Assembly: GCA_947170225.1 (NCBI GenBank)
Contig: CAMVSQ010000001.1
Span: forward strand, 62,001 to 126,000
Source of the DNA: an uncultured bacterium
GTDB lineage: Bacteria > Patescibacteriota > Gracilibacteria > Absconditabacterales > Absconditicoccaceae
Length of the DNA: 64,000 nt
Direction of reading: 5' to 3'
Shown: positions 10,938 through 55,020 of the stretch, one piece after another
Position numbering within the stretch: position 1 is the stretch's first letter
How the letters are laid out: every line of letters starts with the position of its first letter
Position numbers and translations under genes: made by a program
The notes under the pieces: generated by a model
Databases searched by the model: none
What the model was told of the DNA's origin: nothing
Seen by the model: only the letters and a program-made list of their open reading frames with translations

Positions 10938-10998
10938 GTCATTCTGAACGAAGTGAAGAATCTATTTTAAGATTCTTCGGCTAATGCCTCAGAATGAC
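10938..10998. repeat. palindromic repeat, family A copy 1
   Basis: Imperfect inverted repeat GTCATTCTGAAC ... AGAATCT / AGATTCT ... CAGAATGAC. The same ends recur at 28559, 54009 and 54951. It lies between alr and thyA. Confidence 0.85.
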
Positions 10999-28170: not shown

Positions 28171-29589
28171 ATGACCTTTGAAGAATTAAGAAACAAGTAT
28201 AGCAAATTTGTATATGAAAAGTATGAAATTAATGATATTTGAGATTGGCTGGATATCACATATTTTTTTGGTATTGAATGATTGACCACATTTACTCCAT
28301 CAATAAAAATTGAGAAAAAAAATATTAAAAACAAAAATATTGATCCAGCGTTTGTGAACAATCTGGTTTTTCATATCGGACTTGTAGAGTTAATTAGTTA
28401 TTGGAAATGTTGTTGCCCAAAAAATGTAGAAATCAAAGCTTGATATATCAATGACGAACAAATAAAATGGTTTAAAAAAATGTATTTTTACTGATTAGGA
28501 GAATTTTTTTATACAAATTGAATTGAAGTGGATGAAGATAGTTTTATGAATATTCTATGTCATCCCGAGTGAAATGCGGTGCGTGGCTCACGCGAAGCGA
28601 GTCCCGTCTTCAGCGGGGTTAGCAGAGAAGGATATAATTTAGATTCTTCACTTCATACCGCTAACGGCATAAATTCAGAATGACAATTTGACTGAAATCT
28701 CATCACCATTTGAGGATGAAAGGACTCAAATGTGACTTTGGAACTTTTGAAATGAATGGATAATGATACATTTATTTTGAATCCAAACGATGTGACACTG
28801 GAATGTAGTAAAGTTTGATGATACGACAAGCCACGAGTCATGAAAAGAATTTTGGATCCACAAATCGTAGAATTGAATAAACACTGATTTTTAAATGGAC
28901 ATACTCCATTTAATGCTCTACTAGCATTTTTGACTTACCTTGTAGCATATTTGGGAAATAAAAAGTATATAATACTTTCCAATGAAAGCAGTGCAAATGA
29001 GAGCAATGTAAGAGACTTGAAAGTTAACCATCAATATTCCAAAAGTTTTGAATTTGAAAATGATTTTAATGAATATACAAAAAAATATTTCTGAATATGA
29101 ATCAAATATTTCAGCTTTTTGAGACCACTTTTGGAAATCCAAATTGCCAAGCTATTTTCACAATTTGAACAATATCACCAAGTATTCAAAAGCTGTAATG
29201 TATGAAGCAAATCCAAACCTCGAAAACGATGTTGCGACTGCCCAAAATGTTTGTTCGTTTTCATTATTTTAAGCCCATTTTTGTACAAAGAAAAATTGGT
29301 AAATATTTTTTGACAAGATTTATTTGAAAATAAAGATTTACTACAAACTTTTATTGATTTAACCTGAAATAGCGAAAATAAGCCATTTGAATGTGTCGGG
29401 ACTTATGATGAAGTGAATTATGCAATAGCACTTGTAATCAAGAAATTGGGTGGAAAATTACCATATTTATTGCAGTATTATGTGGATAATTTTGAAGTAA
29501 AAGACTATGATTTATTAAATTATTTTAATGAAGAGAATAATTTGGAACCAGAATTTTTGAATATTTTGAGGAAAAATTTATTTAAGTAA
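28171..29589 (+). CDS. murL: UDP-MurNAc-L-Ala-L-Glu epimerase
   Basis: 472 residues matching MurL, which epimerises the terminal L-Glu of UDP-MurNAc-L-Ala-L-Glu to D-Glu. Characteristic blocks: LITIGGGKDSNVTLELLK, LSNESSANESN, HQYSKSFEFE, FLRPLLEIQIAKLF and CCDCPKCLFVF. Residues about 130-171 (28559-28684) come from an in-frame palindromic repeat, just before the GGGKDS motif; related proteins should lack it. The partner ligase MurD2 is two genes downstream. The protein has many TGA glycines. Whether the insert is tolerated is unknown, but the frame is intact. Confidence 0.87.
28559..28684 (+). repeat. palindromic repeat, family A, in frame inside murL
   Basis: Starts GTCATCCCGAGTG and ends TTCAGAATGAC like the other family A copies, with a GC-rich centre (CCCGTC...GGGGTT) foreign to the surrounding AT-rich gene. 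The reading frame stays open across it. Confidence 0.85.
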
Positions 29590-33467: not shown

Positions 33468-34892
33468 ATGAAACTAAAAAAAATTGTTTTATCTCTTGTT
33501 TTTTGATTATTTATATGAGTTAATTGTAGCTTTGCTAGTGAATTAAATTTTTGAGATTTTTTGACTATTTATTTTGAATGAGTTAGTCAATGAACTCAAA
33601 ATTTTTGAGATGAGTGGAAAAAAATTGATGTAAAGTATAGCAATGTACAAAAAGATTCTTTGCTATATAGATCCTTGCAAAAGTGAATTTATTTGGATTT
33701 GTTTCCAAATATGGAAATTTCTTTGCCACTAAATAAAGTGCTTGAACAGCAAAATATGGCACAATTGCTACAAGGACAAATATGATGAAAAATTAGTTTT
33801 ATAAAATGAGAAAAAATTACAACTCAATGGACAAAAGAGCTGATAGAAGAAACTCTGAAAAATTTGGATATATACGAGCAAATAAAAAACGATGTCATGG
33901 AACAATTGGGGAAATCATATTTATATTGAAATAAAATTGACTGGAATAGTTGCAATGATTTGTCTGAATGTATAAAAAAGCTGGATGATCAGTATACAGA
34001 ATATTTAAATTCTGGTGATGCTGTAAATTTTATGGACTCTTTGCAATGAAATTTTGAAGGAATTGGAGCATATATCAAAATGATTGATCCTTGAATTTTT
34101 GTCATAGATAAGGTAATCAAATGATGACCAGCTGAATTGTGATGATTGAAATCTGGAGATATATTTGTACAGATAGATGATTTGGTAGTAAATCAAGATA
34201 CAAGTATTGAAAATTTGGTTTCTCATATCAAAGGAAAATCTGGATCTATAGTAAAAATTGGAGTAAAAAGGTGAAATGAAATATTATCTTTTGATATAAC
34301 AAGGTGAATGGTATTTTTGGAAAATATTAGTTATCAAAAGTTAAATGGAAGTGTCTGCTATATGAAAATTGCTGAATTTAATCAAGATACTTTGCAACAA
34401 TTTAGAAATGGTTTGGAATTTTTTGAAAGTAATAATTGTGATATTTATATGTTTGATTTAAGAAACAATCCTGGTGGAGAACTGGAAGTGGTGACAAATA
34501 TGCTCAATAATTTTGTAATGGATGGGCAGACTATTGTGGAATTGAGGTTTAGTACTTTTGTGCAAGATATAATAGCGGATAATAGTAGCAAAAAGTATGA
34601 CAAAAAAACTATTATTTTTGTAAACGAGACTTCTGCTTCTGCTAGTGAAATATTTGCTGGGACTTTGCGTGATTATCTAAAGGATTGTAATATAATTTGA
34701 TCAAAAACTTTTTGAAAATGATCGGCACAAAATTTGGTAGAATATGTAGATGGCTCTGTTTTGAAATACACGATAGCAAAGCGATACACATGAAAAACAA
34801 AGACCAATATTGATGGAAAATGATTTGAGCCAGATATTAAAATGTCTGATGAAAAGATAGATTTGCTTTTGAGAAATTTTGGATTGAAATAA
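33468..34892 (+). CDS. S41 carboxy-terminal processing protease (CtpA-like)
   Basis: 474 residues with a signal peptide or anchor (LKKIVLSLVFGLFIGVNCSFA). A PDZ domain lies around residues 185-275 (GIGAYIKM, VIKGGPAELGGLKSGD), then an S41 core with DLRNNPGG, catalytic Ser389 in NETSASASEIFAG and Lys417 in SKTFGKG. The Ser/Lys pair is intact. Such proteases trim exported or membrane proteins. TGA encodes most PDZ glycines. It is followed by a NUDIX gene and dnaA on the same strand. Confidence 0.9.
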
Positions 34893-35054
34893 TTTGGTTC
34901 ATAGTAAAATTTTTGCTGATTTCAAGCCATTATAATTTGACCCTTTGATGGCACAGTTTGTATTGTAATTTTTAAAAATTTTTGTTGTATTACAAAAACA
35001 AAATCTTATATATAAATGTATGTTGTTTTTATTTTCATAAAATTTGGCATTATC

Positions 35055-35492
35055 ATGAGAAAGGAACATTCTTATTGAATTATAGCATTTTTTGAAAATC
35101 CAAATTGAGAACGCGAATTTCTGTTGATAAACCAGAAGGCCGATAACTGATCTTTTTGGTGATATCCTAAATGACACCCTGAAAAATGAGAAAACTGACT
35201 TCAAGCAGCAAAGAGGGAATTTTGGGAAGAAGTGGGGATAAATGATGTAGATATAATTGGAAATAAAACATTTGAGACTGGTTACATTTTTCGTAGAGAG
35301 TGATTGCCTGATATAGACAAAACTGTGACTTTTTGGGTAGGAAAAGTAAAAAATAAAGATGTAAAAATACAAGAAGAAGAACTAAATGGATACAAACGAG
35401 CAAATTTTGAAACTGCAATAAATTTGTTATCACACAAAAACTACCAAGAAATACTGATAAATATAGCAAAATATCTGTCTGAAGAAAAATAA
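35055..35492 (+). CDS. NUDIX hydrolase
   Basis: 145 residues with a complete Nudix box (GENGLQAAKREFWEEVGI) around residues 50-67, beginning with a TGA glycine. The N-terminal FENPNGEREFLLIN and the SFWGYPKGHPE block resemble diadenosine tetraphosphatase or MutT-like enzymes. The substrate is not determined. It lies 75 bases before dnaA on the same strand. Confidence 0.88.
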
Positions 35493-54008: not shown

Positions 54009-54123
54009 GTCATTCTGAGCGAAGCGAAGAATCTAAAAAAAAATCCTCCCCCCGCTTTAGCGGGGACCTCCTTTAAAAAGGAGGACAAGATTCTTCACTA
54101 CACTACGTTTCGTTCAGAATGAC
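54009..54123. repeat. palindromic repeat, family A copy 3
   Basis: GTCATTCTGAGCGAAGCGAA ... CGTTCAGAATGAC, with two nested hairpins in the centre (CCCCGCTTTAGCGGGG and CCTCCTTTAAAAAGGAGG). Lies between the ATPase and the first permease. Confidence 0.85.
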
Positions 54124-54950: not shown

Positions 54951-55020
54951 GTCATTCTGAGGAGCATTGCAACGAAGAATCTAAAACATTAAATAGATTC
55001 TTCGCTTCGCTCAGAATGAC
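54951..55020. repeat. palindromic repeat, family A copy 4
   Basis: GTCATTCTGAGGAGC ... AGATTCTTCGCTTCGCTC-AGAATGAC, between the two permease genes. Confidence 0.88.

Follow-up and report, generated by a model that had tools for sequence, protein, structure and literature searches.

The murL-like gene in the 64,000-nucleotide stretch analysed here (the window) contained an in-frame palindromic element of 126 bases. It is very probable that the element, an inverted and non-autonomous dimer of TGTC/CGTC-tagged REP units, inserted into a length-variable loop of murL and was kept. It would have been retained because the insertion kept the frame and TGA is read as glycine, so that its TGA triplets do not stop translation. 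The initial annotation had taken the segment for a mobile-type repeat turned into protein sequence, and this was supported as the best reading by homologues without the segment and by a dispersed repeat family. Two changes to that reading were needed: copies inside genes were common in the genome, and an altered genetic code, not used earlier, makes the element readable.

The murL-like gene (28171–29589, plus strand; UDP-MurNAc-L-Ala-L-Glu epimerase family) was a single open reading frame of 472 codons under translation table 25, with 19 in-frame TGA codons, and it ran through the element without a frameshift, as had been claimed, and without TAA/TAG. Under table 11, no long open reading frame covered the region. 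The product matched the NCBIfam model NF041275 with an E value of 3.7e-67 and 226.7 bits, below the equivalog cut-off of 700 bits, and the name MurL is, judged by sequence, a homology call. Family match and conserved epimerase motifs were both present. The product was 54% identical to a Bacilli MurL over 469 columns, and all 44 invariant MurL columns were kept, including the GGGKDS nucleotide-binding motif (28711–28728, plus strand; residues 181–186, invariant columns G181–S186), which was spelled with TGA codons. Table 25 and the homologues, for example at GGGKDS, point to glycine as the meaning of TGA in this genome. Its long TAA/TAG-free open reading frames had 45 TGA per 1000 codons, and a tRNA with the anticodon TCA was not found in the scanned stretches, a minor part of the genome.

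The ends of the element, GTCATCCCGAG at 28559 and TCAGAATGAC running to 28684, were located as first described. The element (28559–28684, plus strand) encoded CHPEGNAVRGSREASPVFSGVSREGYNLDSSLHTANGINSEGQ (residues 130–172), with two TGA read as glycine, and was followed after nine residues by the GGGKDS motif, in line with its reported position just before that motif. The left REP unit (28559–28632, right end approximate; plus strand) fitted the family hairpin as GTC-ATCCC-GA ... AGGAT, with a long internal loop and a mismatch at the fifth stem position. The right REP unit (28642–28684, left end approximate; minus strand) was inverted, with the pattern GTC-ATTCT-GA ... GA-AGAAT, and was matched by an nhmmer half-unit profile at 28684–28642 (E 0.12, weak alone). 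The GC content was 0.492 in the element, 0.275 in the remaining murL gene, and 0.304 in the window, which agrees with the GC-richness noted before. Under the standard code, a stop was present in all six frames of the element. Under table 25, two frames were open, the used frame and its antisense, and the used frame would be closed if its two TGA codons were not sense.

An AlphaFold2 model of the product, built with a 19-row alignment, had a mean pLDDT of 83.7 and a pTM of 0.86, and the sole segment with pLDDT below 50 was residues 129–169, the insert. The insert is predicted to be a disordered loop on a well-folded enzyme. In a Foldseek search with this model, QueC was the only PDB match at an E value below 0.001. 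In the proposed course of events, a REP dimer would have moved into a permissive, naturally length-variable loop of murL, and copies that kept the frame would have survived. The loop thereby added to the protein, immediately ahead of the nucleotide-binding motif, would be disordered and probably close to neutral, and the enzyme core is intact. We infer that the MurL-like protein is produced with the inserted residues and that the enzyme works.

Alignment with other MurL proteins had been named in advance as the comparison on which the insertion could fail, and a related segment was found in none of the 26 homologues that covered the site. Among 21 MurL open reading frames from relatives, 19 covered the site (L031 was masked there and L038 was a fragment) and none carried the element. 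The same was true of the seven site-covering loci among eight from Bacilli and Bacteroidota, and half-element profiles gave no copy at that loop in the murL loci of the relatives. A loop segment in the MurL of G045 (L020) looked by eye like a decayed element and was rejected, as the half-element profiles gave no match in it. The loop at the insert site was variable in length in all homologues. The initial annotation had counted about 42 added residues; the element is indeed 42 codons long, but the net gain relative to MurL proteins of 54% identity was 29 residues, found as a net gap in two pieces at the insert in a BLASTP comparison with homologue L240. The gain was about 29 and not 42 because a native loop of 13–14 residues was missing or shorter in comparison with Bacilli MurL. 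Therefore, either the insertion was not clean or the loop had been shorter beforehand; since the nearest homologues are only 54% identical, the pre-insertion state of the lineage is not visible. The left-junction codon, TGT, in three of six Bacilli genes was the same as the triplet that the preceding T forms with the first two bases of the element, which may be chance.

The half-site GTCATYCYGA occurred 134 times (66+68) in the 952,577-base genome, whereas a reversed control pattern occurred 0+0 times. Around 100 of these half-sites and the DNA-match loci, 51 inverted pairs were parsed, so that the genome has at least 51 copies, 44–148 bp long. The hairpin pattern was fitted by 86 of 102 halves. 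The outer 5-bp stem was exactly complementary in 83 of the 86 matched half-units and was followed by G-A mismatches. Inner pairs were present in 70 of 85 half-units (shuffled mean 31.8, maximum 46 in 500 shuffles), and the first of them showed A-T/G-C exchange among half-units. The loops varied, and the stem was not a perfect 8–9 bp. The tail after AGAAT was CT in most copies inspected, without a count. The base before the element was T in 42, C in 7, and A in 2 of the 51 copies, and the base after it was A in 39 and G in 5. A target-site duplication was found in none of the 51 copies, and flank matches at k=1–9 did not exceed those of shuffled flanks. Its sequence anatomy is that of TGTC/CGTC-tagged REP dimers. 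As observations on their distribution, intergenic copies lay within ~20 bp of tRNA genes at L108 3369–3455, L018 1482–1540, L106 2126–2220, and L095 1964–2034, and in a related genome, G030, half-sites formed dense arrays (G030:C11:25630-26790 and 33970-35492) with a spacing mostly well below 200 bp.

It had been stated that the other copies lie only between genes. This was correct for the three in the window, intergenic by their open reading frame context, at 10938–10998 (61 bp), 54009–54123 (115 bp, with a second inner inverted repeat), and 54951–55020 (70 bp); it was not correct genome-wide, where at least 11 of the 51 parsed copies lay in recognisable genes. Thirteen copies were in frame on the gene strand and stop-free under table 25, flanked on both sides by 60 or more open codons; the search is by its design biased towards open frames. 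In 11 of them, the gene was supported by a family match or an alignment: MurL, LeuS, Tex, TruD, HemW-like, TrhP-like, a metallophosphoesterase, a polysaccharide pyruvyl transferase, DUF456, and two proteins of the S-layer-homology/Flg_new type, of which L101 was run against Pfam and L100 was placed by like sequence. Also in frame but not counted with these were L003, whose weak match to PriA was confined to the part downstream of the insert, and L113, which had no NCBIfam match. The frame-break check, which needs open flanks of at least 60 codons, gave three further cases, L089, L091, and L095, in which a stop or a frame disruption occurred; their flank translations do not look genic, and therefore no broken gene was recognised in this genome. 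Alignments to solved LeuS and Tex structures had a gap at the insert, and the element was in none of 28 aligned LeuS relatives, two rows of which were partly masked or cut. The related S-layer-homology-type proteins L097, L100, and L101 shared one short element, located in a linker, which was probably duplicated together with the gene. In HemW-like proteins of two genera (L054 1501–1581 and L229 2328–2393; 44% identity over 392 columns), elements lay in the same loop, and the HemW of G031 had a second palindromic element.

The best-surviving alternative, though an unlikely one, is that murL is dispensable, so that the insertion marks a gene heading to decay and its open frame is luck. A murL match was present in only 23 of 59 genomes searched, its own included; most relatives, and the same-genus genome G001, had none. 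In addition, about 14 native loop residues were lost, and the nearest homologues are in Bacilli, so that murL may be a recent acquisition. Decay is, however, at odds with 472 codons free of frameshift and TAA/TAG, with the kept invariant columns, and with a model that is confident outside the insert. A like insert was also in the only LeuS found (one locus above the family cut-off). LeuS is probably indispensable, and it shows that such an insert is tolerated even where the enzyme is presumably essential. As an observation on the origin of the gene, the closest MurL proteins found were in Bacilli metagenome-assembled genomes (~54%) and none was in G001, and a horizontal transfer of the murL-like gene is possible on these comparisons. 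Adaptive exaptation, in which the insert was selected for a new property of MurL such as an interaction or regulation, is very improbable. Its place nine residues before GGGKDS and the HemW loop shared by two genera would suit such selection, whereas the predicted disorder of the insert and the presence of elements in unrelated proteins argue against it.

The relation to the genetic code was compared among relatives. Of the 306 frames of the 51 copies, table 25 leaves 131 open and table 11 leaves 50, and all 13 in-gene copies of the murL-bearing genome contained at least one in-frame TGA. In G030, 4 of 24 copies were in genes (a glycosyltransferase, ClpB-like, HsdR-like, and TrmA-like, the first and last less certain); TGA was inside all four inserts, with 1–5 further TGA outside. 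In G031, 4 of 9 copies were in genes (HemW twice, PriA-like, and HI0933-like), three of them with TGA. G023 (one copy) and G019 (two copies) had no accepted in-gene copy. In total, 19 of 87 copies were in genes in five recoded genomes and 0 of 40 in six standard-code genomes (Fisher p 0.0007, or 0.003 if 15 of 87 are counted), and TGA was in 18 of the 19 in-gene copies against ~62% of open frames (binomial p 0.0016); these p values are guides only, as copies and genomes are not independent, and since the five recoded genomes are one family and the six others belong to other families, phylogeny is confounded with code. Copies for this comparison were parsed only from fetched stretches around listed sites, in-gene status was a manual judgement aided by Pfam, and the standard code of G043, G049, G052, and G041 was deduced from genes without TGA. 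Several open frames were rejected as genes because they had no family, were antisense, or had a start downstream: in G030, long frames over arrays in L159, L162, L163 (without a Pfam run), and the region upstream of a racemase in L154; in G031, L233:9718 (without a Pfam run); and in G041, L227. Antisense frames over Tex and ClpB were also rejected.

Ribosomes are reported to bypass the byp inserts of yeast mitochondria, and the element in murL might similarly be bypassed, or cut from the mRNA, and so not be translated. A GC-rich, foldable insert in an AT-rich gene, near an active-site loop, would suit this explanation, which is nevertheless highly improbable: the in-gene copies of this genome were in frame and free of TAA/TAG at lengths from 44 to 131 bp, which neither bypass nor splicing would require, and the fold of the murL copy was not exceptional (z -1.46). 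It is also highly improbable that the insert arose in assembly or binning, through a join at a repeat in this draft of 24 contigs, although repeats do cause misassembly. The two flanks are parts of a single gene, correctly ordered and in frame with each other; no full-length copy is similar enough to have prompted a jump (the best other match was 95% over 65 of 126 bases); and the same pattern was seen again in many genes and in two further genomes.

Rickettsia reads TGA as a stop, and therefore its in-gene RPE frames must avoid TGA, whereas TGA was present in nearly all in-gene copies here (18 of 19), where it is read as glycine; the two systems are likened by description, not by sequence. 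In the available portions of two reports, the likeness lies in short palindromes in frame in many unrelated, probably functional proteins (PMC3733652, PMC10969869). The CGTC-tagged REPs (Di Nocera et al. 2013), as described in the accessible text, form a superfamily that includes Rickettsia RPE-4 and RPE-6, with a tag that is often TGTC (PMC3733652). There, an unpaired CGTC tag (variants TGTC and CCTC) is followed by A-T, an 8–9 bp stem, and a 4–5 base loop; most tails, not all, fit CCA; and some copies lie in genes, including those of a tRNA synthetase and a pseudouridine synthase, and encode 20–30 or more residues (PMC3733652). The present family shared with these the TGTC/CGTC tag followed by AT, a small hairpin, a predominance of inverted (HH-like) dimers, a mainly intergenic location with some copies in genes, and the lack of an adjacent dedicated transposase. 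It differed in a stem of 5 bp with a tandem G-A mismatch and inner pairs, in the CT tail in place of a CCA-like one, in a host outside the five phyla listed in that text (PMC3733652), and in the TGA read as glycine within nearly all in-gene copies. With REPIN/RAYT systems (GTAG REPs), it shared an inverted, non-autonomous REP dimer and the absence of a visible target duplication; its ends, in contrast, were GTCAT without a GTAG tag, and Y1_Tnp was absent from the genome. Classical MITEs (DDE transposase) differ by the target-site duplication that was absent in 51 copies here.

In titles and the beginnings of abstracts, from mainly non-subscription literature, no report of such inserts in TGA-recoded bacteria was found. 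In-frame palindromic inserts are a known phenomenon, described in Rickettsia and in some Proteobacteria rich in REPs; what appears new is the host group and the dependence on a reassigned codon. The element studied here can be read only by way of a stop codon that has been reassigned. The repeat family occurs both in relatives that have the reassignment and in relatives that lack it, which offers a natural comparison of the effect of a code change on mobile DNA. Tentatively, and with somewhat more doubt than belief, the reassignment of TGA from stop to glycine may have opened a closed niche: REP palindromes blocked by TGA would become translatable, invade genes, essential ones included, and persist there, so that a code change would alter the landing space of mobile repeats and seed disordered loops across the proteome. 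In general, palindromes can lie in genes without recoding, as the Rickettsia cases indicate in the available parts of the reports (PMC3733652, PMC10969869).

The element appears to have moved as a unit and to have been mobilised in trans, perhaps by a Y1/RAYT-type transposase no longer found in the genome. Y1_Tnp (PF01797) had no match in this genome. Among the 59 genomes, by a hand tally, Y1_Tnp was matched in 14 of 24 with more than 10 half-sites and in 5 of 35 others. RAYT was not adopted as the mobiliser, as Y1_Tnp was absent from both this genome and G030, which has 144 half-sites, and an element lay near only 1 of 18 Y1_Tnp genes inspected in relatives. The mobiliser of CGTC repeats is not established in the accessible text on them either (PMC3733652).

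Other inserts were observed in LeuS of relatives. The LeuS of G016 (L205) carried an in-frame PDDEXK_3 nuclease-like domain (Pfam E 2.9e-27) in the loop that holds the palindrome in the LeuS of the murL-bearing genome, with a NUDIX domain further along the protein; the first insert in the LeuS of G003 (L211) was similar to that of G016 in the alignment. The LeuS of G042 (G042:C6:119515-122643, L210) had a Y1_Tnp-type transposase domain in frame in the same loop, and another Y1_Tnp-type domain lay within a second long frame at G042:C40:10989-11231, with an aminoacyl-tRNA synthetase match nearby.
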